From contig NZ_WUBS01000001.1 in NCBI RefSeq assembly GCF_010131535.1, positions 1 through 64,000 of the forward strand: a stretch of DNA of 64,000 nt, given 5' to 3'. The position numbers and the translations under genes are program-made. The DNA is from Acerihabitans arboris (lineage in GTDB: Bacteria; Pseudomonadota; Gammaproteobacteria; Enterobacterales; Enterobacteriaceae). The notes under the pieces are model-generated. The model was not told where the DNA came from and did no database searches. It saw only the letters and a program-made list of their open reading frames with translations. Numbering within the stretch: position 1 is the first letter of the stretch; each line of letters opens with the position of its first letter. Positions 20,857 to 57,530 of this stretch are shown in pieces.

Positions 20857-20933
20857 TGGTGCATCCAGGAGGATTCGAACCTCCGACCGCTCGGTTCGTA
20901 GCCGAGTACTCTATCCAGCTGAGCTATGGATGC
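20857..20933 (-). tRNA. tRNA-Arg (anticodon ACG), copy 3 of 3 in transcript order
   Basis: 77 nt with encoded CCA. The minus strand starts GCATCCATAGCTCAGC, anticodon loop CTACGAA (ACG; wobble A becomes inosine), ends GGATGCACCA. Identical to the two neighbouring copies; equivalent to E. coli argV/argY/argZ. Confidence 0.98.
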
Positions 20934-20987
20934 AATGATGAGACCAAAGACGATATGTGGTAAAACGGATTTTGTTTAATACGGGAA

Positions 20988-21064
20988 TGGTGCATCCAGG
21001 AGGATTCGAACCTCCGACCGCTCGGTTCGTAGCCGAGTACTCTATCCAGCTGAGCTATGGATGC
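20988..21064 (-). tRNA. tRNA-Arg (anticodon ACG), copy 2
   Basis: 77 nt including CCA, identical to the flanking copies. It is separated by 54 bp and 51 bp spacers that are not conserved, so the repeat unit is only the tRNA plus a few bases. Confidence 0.98.
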
Positions 21065-21115
21065 ATCGTATTAAATAATACAACTAATTTCCGACCGTGC
21101 TAACGGGTCGTCTAA

Positions 21116-21192
21116 TGGTGCATCCAGGAGGATTCGAACCTCCGACCGCTCGGTTCGTAGCCGAGTACTCTATCCAGCTGAGCTATGGATGC
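21116..21192 (-). tRNA. tRNA-Arg (anticodon ACG), copy 1
   Basis: 77 nt including CCA, the first Arg tRNA after tRNA-Ser in the transcript. Only 12 bp separate it from tRNA-Ser, so the cluster is one precursor. Confidence 0.98.
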
Positions 21193-21204
21193 AATATTAA
21201 ATAA

Positions 21205-21297
21205 TGGCGGTGAGGGAGGGATTCGAACCCTCGATACAGCTTTTGACCGTATACTCCCTTAGCAGGGGAGCGCCTTCAGCCTCTCGGCCACCTCACC
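21205..21297 (-). tRNA. serV: tRNA-Ser (anticodon GCT)
   Basis: 93 nt class II tRNA with long variable arm and encoded CCA. It begins GGTGAGGTGGCCGAGAGGC with anticodon loop CTGCTAA (GCT, reading AGC/AGU). It heads the serV-argVYZ type cluster next to csrA, as in E. coli. Confidence 0.97.
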
Positions 21298-51068: not shown

Positions 51069-51974
51069 TCAAAGCTGGGGTTGTATCGTCGCGGTACTGT
51101 TTTTCTCCTCGGAATAGACCATGATAGTGGAACCGGTAATAGCAAGGATAGTGCCGGTCAAAGCGTAAGCCGTTGGCAGGGTCTGGTACAATAACAATGA
51201 TATTACCGCGGTGAGGACCGGGGCCAGCGCATTAGTGCAAGGCGCCACGATAATGGCTTTTCCCCTGGACAGCGCCATGACCAGGAATAAGGCGCCGACG
51301 GCATTCAATACCTGGGTGGCGGCGGTAATAAGATAGGCGGCCGCCGGATAACCGCCGCTTTTATCAGGGATCATGGCATAGGCGATGGGAGCCAGGATAA
51401 GGCCGGTCAACGTCATATAAAAGAAAATGGCGCTATCCTCAATGTGATTGTTGGACGCCCTTTTCATAAAAAACGCTTGCAGCCCCCAGGCCAGGCAAAT
51501 AATAACTGAAAATAGTAACCACAGTGACCCGCTTATTGTCGTACCATCGCCCTGGCTAATGCTAAAGGCGAGTATCGATAACAGCGCCAGGATTATACCG
51601 ATGGTGCCAAGAAAATTGATTCGCTCTTTCAACAACACCAGCGACATTATCACGGTAATCGCGGGTGAAATCGAGATAATGGGGAACACCAGATAGGCCG
51701 GAGCGCCCATGCCCAGGGTTTTAAACAGTAATAACTGCCCGCCCGCGCCGGTAAAACCAATCGCCAGCCCGTAAAGTATCGCCTGCGGGGAAAAATCAAT
51801 TTTTTTACCTTTCAGCGTAAAATAACAGGGAATGAGCATGGTGATTGACCATATGATATAGACCCATTGATCGGGGAAGCTGTATTTTTGTGTCGGATAC
51901 GCGCTCACACCGCCCCAAACGCCCCAGGTTAATACCACCATTAAGGTATAAATAATCCACGAATTGCTTTTCAT
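51069..51974 (-). CDS. EamA/DMT-family inner-membrane transporter
   Basis: 301 aa with about ten hydrophobic helices in two EamA repeats (halves around 5-140 and 155-290; LLKERINFLGTIGIILALLSI ends the first). It belongs to the drug/metabolite transporter superfamily, which includes sugar permeases such as GlcU/RhaT-like members. It is the last gene of the kba/aga-like operon, starting 2 bp after the kinase stop, with GGAGAATAAA before ATG 51974. Its place suggests it imports the free sugar, or amino sugar, that the kinase phosphorylates; this is inference. Confidence 0.88.
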   Translation of the reverse strand: MKSNSWIIYTLMVVLTWGVWGGVSAYPTQKYSFPDQWVYIIWSITMLIPCYFTLKGKKIDFSPQAILYGLAIGFTGAGGQLLLFKTLGMGAPAYLVFPIISISPAITVIMSLVLLKERINFLGTIGIILALLSILAFSISQGDGTTISGSLWLLFSVIICLAWGLQAFFMKRASNNHIEDSAIFFYMTLTGLILAPIAYAMIPDKSGGYPAAAYLITAATQVLNAVGALFLVMALSRGKAIIVAPCTNALAPVLTAVISLLLYQTLPTAYALTGTILAITGSTIMVYSEEKNSTATIQPQL

Positions 51975-51975
51975 T

Positions 51976-52944
51976 TTATTCTCCAATTTTAAGCTTATTG
52001 AGAACAGCGCCATCGAGGGGATTGCCACTTATCTTTGCGGCATAAATAGCGGCCCCCATTGAGGGATTATATTTGGGTTGGCATACCAGGTAGTTGCCGC
52101 TGAGGTTAGCAAGCTCATGAATAAACGGGTCAAGGATAATATCACCGCAGTTAAAAACACCGCCGGTAAACGACACCAGGGCCGTCTCGTTAGGTGAGTA
52201 CTCCAGCTCCTTGCGGACTGAATCCACCATCATGGCGAGTTCCCTGGCAGCGGTACAAAAAAGCTTGTAACTCTCTTTGTCGCCCTCGACCGCCGCTTCA
52301 TAGGCTAGCTTGGCAACCGACGCTATTTTAGTCCGGTCCCCTTGCCACTTATTGAACACCAGATCGTTGATATCAAGATCGACATCGATATGGTATTTGC
52401 TTTTGATCAGATCATACAGAATATCCATCTTCAGCCGATGGTCGGACATTTTTGAAAATAGATTGAGGGCGTTACAACCGATCCAATAGGCGCTACCCTC
52501 ATCGCTGAACAGCTCCCCCCATCCCCCGCAGCGGGAGGTTTTTCCGTTATGCTCGCCATACGCGATCGAGCCGGTACCGGAAACGATATTGATGCCGTCG
52601 CGGCAGCCAAGGCTTGCCGCCCAGCCGCAAACCATATCGTTATCGCAGCGATATTTATCGGCGCTGAGCAAAGCGCAGGGAATCTGATCAAGAAAAGCAA
52701 CGTCCGCCGATACCTCGCCGTAGGCCGGCAGGCCAAAAAAAGAGTAATCAATGATGTCGGGAACGATTTCGGCACGCCGGCAGACTTCGACAATACCGTT
52801 GGTAATAATAGTTCTGCTGTTTTCGCGCCCAACGTTTAAATAGTAGCAGGTGGACGTTTCGTGCTGTGCCAAAACCACGCCCTCCGAGTTGATCAGCACA
52901 AAGGCCGTTTTGGTCCCCCCACCGTCGACCCCCAGGAAGATCAT
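51976..52944 (-). CDS. BadF/BadG-family sugar kinase (N-acetylglucosamine-kinase-like)
   Basis: 322 aa actin-fold (ASKHA) kinase. Phosphate-1 motif [15 protein letters not shown] at the N-terminus, catalytic/phosphate-2 region [33 protein letters not shown] (typical of eukaryote-like GlcNAc kinases and BadF family), and adenosine motif [14 protein letters not shown]. It most likely phosphorylates a hexosamine at C6, giving the substrate for AgaS. ATG 52944 overlaps the kbaY stop by 4 bp (ATGA), so the two are coupled. The substrate is not readable from sequence. Confidence 0.88.
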
Positions 52945-53813
52945 GATTCGCTCCCTATAACCAGTTTTCCCGCCGAGCCGCAAAGCCGGATCTTGCTGTA
53001 GACGACCTCTTTCATGGCATCCATGCCCTCACGCATATAAAAACGGGGATCATTAGCCTCGGGATTAGCGGCAAAATACTTTTTCACCGCGCCGGCAAAG
53101 GCGATTTTCAGCTCGGTGCCGACGTTAACTTTACAGATGCCCAGTTTAACGGCGCGGATAATATACTCGTCGGGCACATCGCTGCCGCCGTGTAATACGA
53201 TCGGAATATCAATCCTGTCGTTGATGGTCTCCAGCCGTTCAAAATCTATTTTCGGCTTGTCTTTGTACAGGCCGTGCGCCGTGCCGATAGCGATGGCCAG
53301 GCTATCGATACCGGTAAGATTAACAAACGCCGCCGCCTCATCCGGATCGGTAAGAAAGCTTGACCCGGCGCTGACGTCTTTATCGTCTTCGATGCCGCCT
53401 AGCCTGCCCAGCTCCGCTTCCACGCTGCAGTCATATTTATGGCAAAAAGAAGTTACATCCCGCACCAAGGCAACATTGCCGGAAAAATTTAAATGACTGG
53501 CATCAATCATTGCGCTGCGGGCGCCGGCAAAAACTTTATTGCGGATATCGGCAAGCGCTTCATGATGATCCAGATGCAGCGCTATGGGTATATCAAAGGT
53601 ACCGGCAAAAGATTGGCAGAGGGCGTGAAGATCCTTAAAAGAGATATGCCTGAAGGTGCTGGGGGTGCCGGCCAGGATTACCGGCGATTGGCGTTCATGG
53701 CATGCCTCTAGCACCGCCTGGATAGTTTCGGCATTGTGGATATTAAAAGCGGGAACGGCAAAATTTTCTGCTTTTGCTCGTGCCAATAAATATTTCGTGG
53801 ATATCATGCGCAT
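52941..53813 (-). CDS. kbaY: Tagatose-1,6-bisphosphate aldolase catalytic subunit, KbaY/GatY-like
   Basis: Class II zinc aldolase that cleaves tagatose-1,6-bisphosphate to glyceraldehyde-3-phosphate and dihydroxyacetone phosphate. 290 aa (E. coli KbaY 286). Zinc and catalytic residues in [13 protein letters not shown] (Asp, His), [19 protein letters not shown] and [10 protein letters not shown]. The sequence is closer to KbaY than GatY. It needs the KbaZ/GatZ partner for full activity, and that gene is in the same operon. A few extra C-terminal residues reach into the kinase gene. Confidence 0.92.
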
Positions 53814-53890
53814 AATTTATACCCTGAGTTACGACATGATTTGTCATGTCCTAAGTTATTCTGCTAACCTTGGCTTAGGGCTAGCTTGCT

Positions 53891-55042
53891 TTATATTTTC
53901 AGTTTATGAATAACCACACCCTCGACGACTCTGTTCACCACGCCGGTGGGAGAAGGATTGTCCGGCGAGGCGCCTGATTTCAAGGACGTCAGATAGGCGT
54001 ATATTTGCGCGTAGAGTAAATAGCAAAAACCGATATGGGCGTCATCGGCATTAGTGGTCTTCGGTAAATACAGATGCTCCCCTGTGCTGATTTCCCCGGC
54101 GTTCTTATCGGCGATGGCAATAACCCTGCGCGCCACGTTGTCATTTCTTAATTCGGCTAGCAAGTCCAGATCATATTTTCTGGTATAGGTTGAATTAGAA
54201 ATAAACACCACCACCAGGGTATTCCGGTCTACGATTGATTTCGGTCCATGGCGAAAACCGGTCGGGCTATCAAAAAGAGTACCGATTTTTCCTGCGGTGA
54301 GCTCGAGAATCTTCAGGGCCGACTCCTGCGCGATCCCTTGCAATCCGCCGCTACCGAGGTAGACCACGCGGTTAAAATCATCCTGGCCAAATAACGGCGC
54401 CGGCCGTTGCAAATACTGCGCGATAATCTGTTGGCTATTTTCGATAATGGGCAAAAAACTCTCGCGGTTATACTGTTTGGGCGCAAAAACCGCCAGGCAG
54501 CCCAGCATCATGTTACTGACACTGCTGGTCATGGCGAAACCCCGGTCGTGCGTTTCCGGCGGCGTCAATAATGAGAGCGTATTCGCGCTGTGAGCAAAGC
54601 GCTGATGTAACCGGCCGCTTTCATTACAGGTAATAATGAGATGGAAACATTGCTTAACAGTCTGGTTGGCCAATTCTACGGCCGCCACGCTTTCCGGGCT
54701 ATTGCCCGAGCGGCCAAAAGAGACCAGAAGCGTCGGACATCCGGATGAAAAATAGTCCAGGGGATTACTGACCAGGTCGGTGGTGGGAATGGCCTCTACG
54801 CGCAAATTCAATTTGGGCGTAAGCGCCGGCACCAGGATCTTGCCGATAAAAGCCGAGGTCCCGGCGCCGGTCAGGATAATCCGTAACCCGGCCTGGGCCA
54901 ATAACGGCTGTAAAAAGGCATCTATACGGCTTCTTTCCTGTTCAACCATTAGCAGCGTTTTATGCCAGGTGGCCGGCTGCTGGATAATCTCTTGCGCGGT
55001 GGCATAGTCCAGATTATAAGATGTTGGTGCAGATTGGGTCAT
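53891..55042 (-). CDS. agaS: AgaS-like SIS-domain aldose-ketose isomerase/deaminase
   Basis: 383 aa (E. coli AgaS 384) with two SIS domains. E. coli AgaS turns galactosamine-6-phosphate into tagatose-6-phosphate and ammonia. Conserved pieces RIILTGAGTSAFIGKIL, VSFGRSGNSPESVAAVELA, VYLGSGGLQGIAQESALKILELTAG and FRHGPKSIVD (active-site His) are intact. It lies between kbaZ (20 bp) and kbaY (77 bp). It fixes the pathway as a galactosamine-type route and not simple galactitol use. Confidence 0.93.
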   Translation of the reverse strand: MTQSAPTSYNLDYATAQEIIQQPATWHKTLLMVEQERSRIDAFLQPLLAQAGLRIILTGAGTSAFIGKILVPALTPKLNLRVEAIPTTDLVSNPLDYFSSGCPTLLVSFGRSGNSPESVAAVELANQTVKQCFHLIITCNESGRLHQRFAHSANTLSLLTPPETHDRGFAMTSSVSNMMLGCLAVFAPKQYNRESFLPIIENSQQIIAQYLQRPAPLFGQDDFNRVVYLGSGGLQGIAQESALKILELTAGKIGTLFDSPTGFRHGPKSIVDRNTLVVVFISNSTYTRKYDLDLLAELRNDNVARRVIAIADKNAGEISTGEHLYLPKTTNADDAHIGFCYLLYAQIYAYLTSLKSGASPDNPSPTGVVNRVVEGVVIHKLKI

Positions 55043-55062
55043 TTATCTATTCCTTTAAATAA

Positions 55063-56364
55063 TTAATTACATGCTGATGAATATATTTTTATGACATCAA
55101 TGATTTTATCCAGAATAAGATTCTTGGGATTAAGCGCTAGCTCGCCATTTCTTACCCTGGCATATTGCTCAGGCAAATATTGACTTAATAATGGTAGGGG
55201 GATAACCGCATTCTCTAGGTTGAGTATCAATTTTTGGCAGCTGCGTTGCACCGTTTCATTCGGCCAGTAATACCTTATGCGGTCAGAATAGCTATACCGG
55301 CGGGAAATTCGCTTTTCGACTTCATCGCCGTGATAATGCCGCAGCCAATACTCCGGCTGCTCCTGCATGACCCGCTCCAGGGTTGTGCGTAGTTCACAGC
55401 GGCCTTGACTGATGATTTCTTTCTCGATGCGCTCAAGGGCAAACAACGCTTCCCGCAGGGCGAAAGTTAACGCGGGACCCACCTTGAGGATGGCGAAATG
55501 ATCCCGCACCAGCTGCCGGTAAGCCTGGGGACGTTGATAATCCGTAGAATGCGCTTCATACACCAAATGGGGATATTGTTCGATCATCCGGCTTAACGAG
55601 GACGCAAGCTCAGGTTGATAATCGATTACCTGGGTATGGCTAAACTCCACGCCGGGTTGCACCACTAATCCTACCACCCTGGGCCATATATCTCCCAGTC
55701 CCCGCCGTGCGAAGGCGTCGCTGTGCGCCTGGATGGTGCGCGCCGCCGCAGCCGGCGAGGTGACATCCAGTTGCCGCAGGTTTTCCTTGGCCCCGCCCGG
55801 AACCGGCACTTCCGTACCGATGATATAGACGATATCGTGACAACCGAAGGTATCGTGGCAGGTATCTTCCGCTATTTTTGCCAAGCGGGCGGAACGCCCG
55901 GCTATGATTTCATCGCTGAGCGGCACGGCGTCGTCCCGGCAAGCCATGCTGCAATCAAGATGGATTTTTTTGAATCCCGCCGCCACGTAGGACGCGATAA
56001 GCGCTTCCGCTTTAGCCATGGCCTCCGCGGCCGGAAGCCCCTGCCAGCGGTTTGGCCCCAGATGATCGCCGCCCAGAATCAGCTTGGTGACGTCAAAACC
56101 CATGGCGATGGCCTGCGCCATGATGGTCTGGTAAAAATCGGCCGGCGTCATGCCGGTATAACCCCCATATTGGTCGACCTGGTTGGAGGTCGCTTCTATC
56201 AGCAGCAGGGTGTTTTCCGCCTGCGCATGCCGCAGGGCGGCCTCGATCACCAGGGGATGCGCCGAACAAATCGCATAGATGCCGACCGGTTGACCCTGTT
56301 TGTGCCGGGTTAGCAGCGTTTGTAACGCTACGCTTTGTGTTTCCATTGCCATTGCGTTTTCCAT
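55063..56364 (-). CDS. kbaZ: Tagatose-1,6-bisphosphate aldolase accessory subunit, KbaZ/GatZ-like
   Basis: 433 aa (E. coli KbaZ 426). It stabilises and activates the KbaY aldolase; it was once thought to be a tagatose-6-phosphate kinase. Family segments [54 protein letters not shown] and [17 protein letters not shown] are near-identical to KbaZ. ATG 56364 is chosen ([10 protein letters not shown]) with ATGs at 56352 and 56346 also possible; upstream codons overlap the operators. First gene of the kbaZ-agaS-kbaY-kinase-permease operon, transcribed away from agaR. Confidence 0.93.
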
Positions 56365-56398
56365 CTTTCGGTGTGTTGAAAAAAGATTACACCATGAC

Positions 56399-56463
56399 GA
56401 TAAAGAAAGAAAACAAAAGATCAACCTCTGTGAAGAAGATCATAAAATAATTAAACGAAAGAT
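56399..56463. promoter_or_regulatory. Two AgaR-like operators flanking a CRP-like site
   Basis: Read on the minus strand, 56421-56399 is ATCTTTTGTTTTCTTTCTTT and 56463-56441 is ATCTTTCGTTTAATTATTTT, sharing ATCTTTyGTTT and the T-rich remainder. Both resemble the TTTCGTTT-type AgaR operators of E. coli. Between them TGTGA-AGAAGA-TCATA (56429-56444) matches the CRP half-sites with correct 6 bp spacing, overlapping the edge of the second operator. They lie 35-100 bp upstream of kbaZ. Binding is inferred. Confidence 0.65.
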
Positions 56464-56732
56464 AATATTTTGCATTACGTTTGTTTTGACCCCGCTAGAC
56501 ATCAGGCCCGCCGCTTGTCATCGGGACGTACGACACGCATTCATCCCGCTGGGGCGGGGCAACGTTAAAGAGTCGACATCTCCTTGGGGGGTGGCTACAA
56601 TAGCGTTTGATAAGCAAGACGTAAGGGAATGAAAGGTGTGTCAGGCATGAGGTCCGGCAGATCCCTGCGCGGCTTTTTAGCTCAATGTTGGCAAGTTCCG
56701 GGAGTGGACGGCGGTATGAGGGATGCGATGTT
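56464..56732 (+). promoter_or_regulatory. agaR upstream region
   Basis: About 270 bp without a gene. TACAAT near 56595 could be a -10 for agaR, but I cannot pair it with a convincing -35. The region turns from AT-rich at the operators to GC-rich towards agaR. Confidence 0.35.
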
Positions 56733-57530
56733 ATGAGTCTTGGCAATAAAACGCTGACGACCAGCGCGCGGCGCGAACGAATTGTCGGTCAACTCAGGGC
56801 GCTGGGCAGCGTGCAGGTTAACGTTTTGGCTGCGGACTTTAATGTGTCGACGGTGACCATCCGCAACGATCTGTCATTTCTTGAAAAACAGGGTGTCGCC
56901 ACCCGCGCCTATGGCGGGGCCATGTTATGCCCCGCTCCTGTTGTGGAAGCAGAGCGGTCAATTGAAGCCAAGCGTTCGGAAAACTCCACCATCAAGGAGC
57001 GCATCGGCAAACTTGCCGCTTCGCTCATCACGCCGGGCAGCACGATTATCCTCGACTCCGGCACCACCACCTATGAAATTGCGCGCCAGCTACGGGGTCA
57101 TGAAGATGTGATTGCCATGACAAACGGCATGAATGTGGCGGAAGCGCTGTTAGATGCCCCGGGGGTGGATTTATTAGTCACCGGCGGCCGTCTCAGGCGG
57201 CACTCATTGTCTTTTTTTGGCAGCCAGGCCGAAATCTCATTGCAAAACTATCATTTTGATATGCTGTTTCTAGGCGTGGACGGGCTGGACCCGTTGATGG
57301 GGGTGACGACGCATAATGAAGATGAAGCCAGGCTGAACCGCTGTATGTGCGATGCCTCGAAAAAAATTATCGTCGTGACCGACTCCTCGAAATTTTATCG
57401 CATAAGCCTGCATAAAATCATCAGTATCGACAGCGTGGATAAAATCATTACCGACAGCAATATTTCCCCATCGCTACTGGATATATTCACCGATAAAGGT
57501 ATTGACGTATTACTCGTCGATGCTGAATAG
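56733..57530 (+). CDS. agaR: AgaR-like DeoR-family repressor
   Basis: 265 aa (E. coli AgaR 269). An N-terminal DeoR helix-turn-helix ([20 protein letters not shown], then [25 protein letters not shown]) is followed by a sugar-phosphate sensing domain with the DeoRC motifs [27 protein letters not shown] and [10 protein letters not shown] and [11 protein letters not shown]. Overall very close to AgaR. ATG 56733 (MSLGNKTL) follows the GAGGGATG stretch; 16 upstream codons are rejected. Divergent from the kbaZ operon and the likely repressor of it, relieved by a pathway sugar phosphate. Confidence 0.9.

Follow-up and report, generated by a model that had tools for sequence, protein, structure and literature searches.

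Gene content and layout of the locus

The window analyzed here is a stretch of 64,000 nucleotides from Acerihabitans arboris (positions 1 to 64,000 of contig NZ_WUBS01000001.1), in which positions 51069-57530 carry a putative sugar-catabolic locus of six genes. All six frames were intact, with agaR divergent from kbaZ-agaS-kbaY and the latter followed by genes for a BadF-type kinase and an EamA permease (Table 1), in the order and place given by an initial annotation of this DNA. We propose, with a probability of about two in three, that these genes form an operon, controlled by AgaR, for the catabolism of free D-galactosamine, in which a kinase and a permease would stand in place of a phosphotransferase system (PTS). 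No PTS, deacetylase or tagatose-6-phosphate kinase genes were found within the locus.

Table 1. Features of the proposed galactosamine locus in the window
Feature	Position	Strand	Remarks
agaR, DeoR-family repressor	56730..57530	+	NF040755 387.5 bits, cut-off 260; longest frame from 56685
Divergent control region	56365..56729	.	Between agaR and kbaZ
Candidate AgaR operator CTTTCGTTTAATTATTTTATG	56441-56461	-	Mostly preserved in the alignment with relatives L009 and L010
kbaZ, tagatose-bisphosphate aldolase partner subunit	55063..56364	-	PRK15458 709.6 bits, cut-off 707; longest frame from 56424
agaS, SIS-domain galactosamine-6-phosphate deaminase/isomerase	53891..55042	-	TIGR02815 520.0 bits; 447 bits to the solved AgaS-type protein 3c3j
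kbaY, class II tagatose-bisphosphate aldolase	52941..53807	-	TIGR01858 449.4 bits, cut-off 443.55; longest frame from 53813
BadF/BcrAD-family sugar kinase, proposed galactosamine 6-kinase, 322 aa	51976..52944	-	PF01869 151.3 bits, cut-off 31.5
EamA (DMT) permease, proposed galactosamine importer, 301 aa	51069..51974	-	PF00892 86.4 bits, cut-off 28.2

As in E. coli-type aga/gam clusters, AgaS and KbaYZ were found together with AgaR (AgaS slightly below its model cut-off); KbaY failed the stricter KbaY model PRK12738 (470.7 bits, cut-off 542). The kinase starts with the ATG at 52944, which shares bases with the kbaY stop codon, and the EamA ATG at 51974 lies just past the kinase stop, so that kbaY, the kinase gene and the EamA gene look translationally coupled. 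Within the divergent control region, CTTTCGTTTAATTATTTTATG, which presumably resembles the E. coli AgaR operator, looks like a putative AgaR operator. Its pattern, derived from the same alignment, matched once in the window and not at all in 100 shuffles.

Distribution and genomic setting of the gene set

A scan of contigs from 84,980 species returned 152 relatives of the kinase. The 80 best-matching ones were retained, which leaves out more weakly matching lineages; three loci from genomes of the family brought the set to 83. Between 3.3 and 21 kb of DNA around the kinase was available per locus, absences being lower bounds, and genes were counted locus by locus with tblastn, since gene-caller clusters miss members. 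The 83 loci span Actinomycetota, xanthomonad-type bacteria and Enterobacteriaceae. Up to 7 kb from the kinase, AgaS was present in 80/83 loci, EamA in 68/83 and both in 66/83, together with KbaZ (68/83), KbaY (56/83) and AgaR (40/83). EamA followed the kinase directly (≤600 nt downstream) in 55 loci; in 3 the two genes overlapped by 1-4 nt, and the 10 xanthomonad-type loci carried EamA 4.3-7.4 kb upstream. Queries for the PTS subunits EIID and EIIC matched 0/83 kinase loci; as a positive control, the EIID query picked up, in another locus (L123), an aga EIID with 32% identity. The NagA of the window's own genome matched none of the 83 loci, a search that lacked a positive control as regards a highly divergent AgaA.

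A close kinase occurred in 4/295 sampled Enterobacteriaceae genomes, the window's own included, and in a class-wide sample it was found in 1/369 genomes, again the window's own: the locus is rare in Gammaproteobacteria. The set, which the initial annotation had proposed to look for across Enterobacterales, is rare in the sampled Enterobacteriaceae, and its range extends far beyond that order. In the kinase tree, the window clustered with five other enterobacterial or Enterobacterales sequences (support 100/100). This group of six was placed nearer to 66 Actinomycetota than to the xanthomonads (support 96/97), with a very long outgroup branch and an unsure root. An Amidohydro_2 protein, exported as judged by eye, was present in 12/83 loci (L062, L066 and 10 others), mostly of the xanthomonad type.

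One genome (G171) appears to have two entrances to the same pathway. Its operon comprises KbaZ, the kinase, EamA and a GH27 glycosidase; AgaS and KbaY are not part of it but belong to an aga cluster of the PTS type elsewhere in this genome, which holds its sole AgaS. This AgaS shares 58% identity with that of the window, compared with 53% and 49% for the kinase-linked AgaS of G112 and G032. Since the kinase operon has no AgaS and the only one lies in the PTS-type cluster, PTS and kinase seem to feed one pathway, and the simplest reading is that both would deliver galactosamine-6-phosphate.

In the window, the six-gene block is inserted between iap and cysH. The same six genes recur at the same site in L010, and also in L009, a short contig that reaches just the edges of the iap and cysH neighbors, with protein identities of 74-92% across the two; this recurrence argues that the gene set is more than a chance assembly. 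The G+C content of the locus genes is 0.49-0.54, against 0.59-0.60 in the flanks. Neither the kinase (E up to 1e-30) nor AgaS was found in two other genomes of the genus, where cysH and iap are 1.2 and 1.5 kb apart, compared with 6.9 kb here. Because of the low G+C, the failure to find both genes in these congeners and their short cysH-iap gaps, the block is an accessory locus that was probably acquired. Elsewhere in the window, positions 20857-21297 hold a tandem array of three tRNA-Arg(ACG) and one tRNA-Ser(GCT).

Contributions from the rest of the genome

The genome was surveyed for PTSs through the EIID family, a subunit that Aga and Gam PTSs contain. Two EIID genes were detected, one in an operon that its gene layout marks as manXYZ-type and one in a GH88-linked PTS, and no aga/gam-type PTS was found by this search. 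The description of the locus as PTS-free was borne out, and an intact aga/gam PTS elsewhere in the genome, which would have spoken against the initial reading, did not turn up by EIID. The GH88-linked system (L109, G000:C23:146000-162000) combines a mannose-family PTS and a GH88 gene with a LevR-like regulator recognized by eye, and is perhaps a PTS for unsaturated uronate sugars.

A NagA is encoded at C45 and a second, weaker NagA-like gene at C2. The latter (L113, G000:C2:102000-115000; 187.8 bits, below the cut-off) lies with a ROK-type regulator and NagB-like and symporter-like frames in a second amino-sugar cluster. A galactitol-like cluster (L110, G000:C3:178000-194000) holds a LacC-type kinase, a LacD aldolase and its own GatZ/KbaZ-like gene. 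LacD scored above its cut-off, and the kinase remained below both of its models (397 bits to PRK13508, cut-off 469; 386 bits to TIGR01231, cut-off 409.55). The LacC-type kinase and LacD are candidates for serving the galactosamine pathway. The initial annotation correctly saw no tagatose-6-phosphate kinase in the locus and called on PfkA or another kinase; with these genes at hand, PfkA need not be invoked. Since NagA, the LacC-type kinase and LacD are present elsewhere, the pathway can be closed in this genome without an Aga PTS.

Predicted folds of the kinase and permease

The structural model of the kinase (mean predicted local distance difference test score [pLDDT], 93.3) gave template modeling (TM) scores of 0.78-0.84 to Sulfolobus hexokinase, MurK and human N-acetylglucosamine (GlcNAc) kinase, and of just 0.44-0.46 to dehydratase activators of the same superfamily. 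Family hidden Markov model and predicted fold thus both place the protein among the BcrAD_BadFG sugar kinases, and the initial annotation is supported as far as a sugar-kinase fold goes. A role as dehydratase activator was rejected, the fold being much nearer to sugar kinases. The NagK_SO3507 model gave 69 bits (cut-off 370).

For EamA (mean pLDDT, 79.6), the PF00892 match and the predicted fold agreed on a DMT transporter. Its fold neighbors were 5i20, the nearest, followed by a triose-phosphate translocator, nucleotide-sugar transporters and LicB. If EamA were an exporter, for example of surplus amino sugar or of an antibiotic-like amine, uptake would have to proceed via manXYZ or another porter, and the kinase would act on sugar that had leaked or been recycled. 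The manXYZ-type PTS of the genome and the nearest fold 5i20, which we take to be the exporter YddG, would fit this. The presence of EamA near the kinase in 68/83 loci, of which 58 have it immediately downstream or overlapping, and the neighbor LicB, a choline importer by its title, make export so improbable that we give it the least weight of the readings considered. Neither fold reveals substrate or direction.

Glycosidases near the kinase in relatives

A glycosidase was encoded near the kinase in 58/83 loci (GH36 in 28, GH4 in 28, GH27 in 3; L085 has two). GH36 or GH27 enzymes mostly carried export signals as judged by eye, and GH4 was accompanied by an ABC importer. Among solved structures, a representative GH36 scored 226 bits to 8x1b, 9awt and 9ayu of the Flavonifractor galactosaminidase type and at most 59 bits to other families. 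The entries 9awt and 9ayu are named alpha-D-galactosamine galactosaminidase, and 8x1b, with a nearly identical printed sequence, is named alpha-galactosidase. The active-site residues of the galactosaminidase FpGalNase include W317, D346, D347, W387, K461, D463, Y464, C513 and D532 (PMC11762096). W317, D346, D347, W387, K461, C513 and D532 were conserved in 26/26 members of the GH36 cluster, all of which also had C-x-C-G-T.

The link between GH36 and the gene set was also seen from the other side, with GH36 as bait and without using the kinase, in 394 genomes of one family and 394 of its wider class. This GH36 was rare, occurring in 1/394 class genomes (the query genome alone) and in 8/394 genomes of the family. 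In 8/8 of these family genomes, AgaS, BadF and EamA all adjoined it, as did KbaZ in 7/8; one of the eight was the query genome, and six of the eight overlapped loci among the 83, two being new.

These partners also bear on whether the substrate could be galactose. Alpha-galactosidases would then release galactose, BadF would be a galactose 6-kinase and AgaS would isomerize galactose-6-phosphate to tagatose-6-phosphate without deamination, yielding a PTS-free tagatose pathway. GH27 and GH36 are indeed alpha-galactosidase superfamilies and the gene set includes a tagatose-bisphosphate aldolase. Moreover, with 563 bits the one GH4 representative exceeded the cut-off of 486 of the NCBIfam alpha-galactosidase model, a match that would fit galactose as well as galactosamine. 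However, the 226 bits of GH36 to the galactosaminidase stand against at most 41 bits to the GH36 alpha-galactosidases 3mi6 and 1zy9. The GH27 of 3/3 enterobacterial relatives reads C-H-C-G, where the five best-matching solved alpha-galactosidases have C-E-W-G in four cases and C-N-W-G in one; the Glu of C-E-W-G presumably has a role in alpha-galactosidases. In addition, the AgaS of the window is near to E. coli-type AgaS, which acts on galactosamine-6-phosphate (PMC3668189). We therefore regard galactose as very unlikely.

N-acetylgalactosamine (GalNAc) would require one further step: after import by EamA and phosphorylation by BadF to GalNAc-6-phosphate, the genomic NagA would deacetylate the product and AgaS would continue, a Shewanella-like route built from other protein families. 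This route has its precedent in Shewanella AgaP and AgaK (PMC2996990), NagA is encoded in the genome, and the nearest solved kinase relatives act on GlcNAc or N-acetylmuramic acid (MurNAc). As E. coli nagA can substitute for agaA (PMC3668189), the missing agaA does not by itself decide against GalNAc. That AgaA is absent from the locus stood up, but "not needed" fits better than the initial "replaced". The 0/83 NagA-type matches and a GH36 partner resembling an enzyme that acts on deacetylated galactosamine speak against GalNAc, which we consider unlikely. The same two observations make galactosamine the likely substrate, in line with the initial annotation. According to PMC5583593, AgaS without AgaA is a signature of galactosamine rather than GalNAc use.

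No match to the GH27 of relatives (searched without a positive control) or to GH114 was found in the window's genome, and its host would therefore scavenge galactosamine released by others. GH114 was found in 4/8 non-enterobacterial and 0/4 enterobacterial genomes tested, with no background rate for comparison. Galactosaminogalactan and Pel are galactosamine polymers with known endo-enzymes (PMC12054363), and a link of the gene set to them is a guess.

Proposed pathway

We infer the substrate, the phosphorylated position, the transport direction, the kinase of the next step and the control by AgaR. EamA would bring galactosamine across the inner membrane, and the BadF-type kinase would phosphorylate it at carbon 6 with ATP to galactosamine-6-phosphate. 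AgaS would deaminate and isomerize this compound to tagatose-6-phosphate and ammonia. A tagatose-6-phosphate kinase encoded elsewhere (the LacC-type enzyme of the galactitol-like cluster, or PfkA) would form tagatose-1,6-bisphosphate, which KbaY with KbaZ would cleave to triose phosphates. In relatives, the neighboring glycosidases would free galactosamine from alpha-linked polymers.

Several observations weigh against this proposal. The AgaS of the window stays slightly below the cut-off of 529.2 bits of TIGR02815, and among the relatives of the kinase it is GlcNAc/MurNAc kinases and a hexokinase that are best characterized. Of the 83 loci, 66 are from Actinomycetota, so that the sample is phylogenetically clumped, and 25, including the two closest (L009 and L010), have no GH36, GH4 or GH27 in the available DNA. 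In the GH36 members, the column of the catalytic Asp D463 holds Q in 26/26 in the raw alignment, owing to a two-residue length difference; K-x-D was found in 26/26, and D463 is matched just with a shifted alignment. Y464, functionally important in FpGalNase, is not conserved. Finally, queries with LacC, FruK, PfkB and LacD matched 0/83 loci, no LacC/FruK/PfkB-type kinase being nearby, and KbaY was not detectable in 16 of the 68 KbaZ-bearing loci. The lower pathway is thus not closed within the loci, and KbaZ may have a role other than the textbook one. Overall, the interpretation in the initial annotation was partly supported.

A wider proposal, for and against which we see the balance as even, is that of a previously undescribed cross-phylum galactosamine salvage system. 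It would consist of a BadF galactosamine 6-kinase and a DMT importer with AgaS/KbaZ, paired with alpha-galactosaminidases of three unrelated types, GH36, GH4 and a GH27 whose C2 pocket is altered. Fungal galactosaminogalactan or Pel-like polymers would be what Actinomycetota of soil type, xanthomonads and some few Enterobacteriaceae live on by this means. If true, a substrate could be named for a widespread kinase and permease family so far unassigned, and growth on galactosamine would be predicted for many soil-type bacteria. The secreted enzymes may then cut galactosaminogalactan and Pel, polymers of galactosamine in the biofilms of fungi and bacteria. It would also show how a permease and a kinase can re-create a PTS sugar route, both entrances being carried by G171.

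Comparison with known systems

No description of this gene set was found in text searches of open-licence literature, where the term "galactosamine kinase" appears in a single paper, which deals with human galactokinase; Leyn et al. 2012, reportedly the chief account of GalNAc use without a PTS, might cover part of it. With the E. coli aga/gam cluster (AgaPTS, GamPTS, AgaA, AgaS, KbaYZ, AgaR), the window shares AgaR, AgaS, KbaY, KbaZ and the route from galactosamine-6-phosphate; PTS and AgaA are missing, and a permease and a putative ATP-dependent kinase are present instead. The BadF-family GlcNAc/MurNAc kinases and Sulfolobus hexokinase have fold and ATPase core in common with the window kinase, at 21-27% identity. 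Compared with the FpGalNase/FpGalNAcDeAc system of Flavonifractor plautii (PMC11762096), the GH36 of 28/83 loci appears to be of the FpGalNase kind, but no paired GalNAc deacetylase was identified and the window's locus lacks GH36. The Shewanella GalNAc route comprises the permease AgaP, the kinase AgaK, AgaAII and AgaS (PMC2996990). Both systems are PTS-free, with a permease and a kinase feeding AgaS. In contrast to the window locus, which has no GalNAc-6-phosphate deacetylase, the Shewanella pathway includes a deacetylase and serves GalNAc, and its permease belongs to the GGP family rather than to EamA. Uptake by permease and kinase is thus known for GalNAc in Shewanella, and the galactosamine version proposed here would be a variant of that kind.

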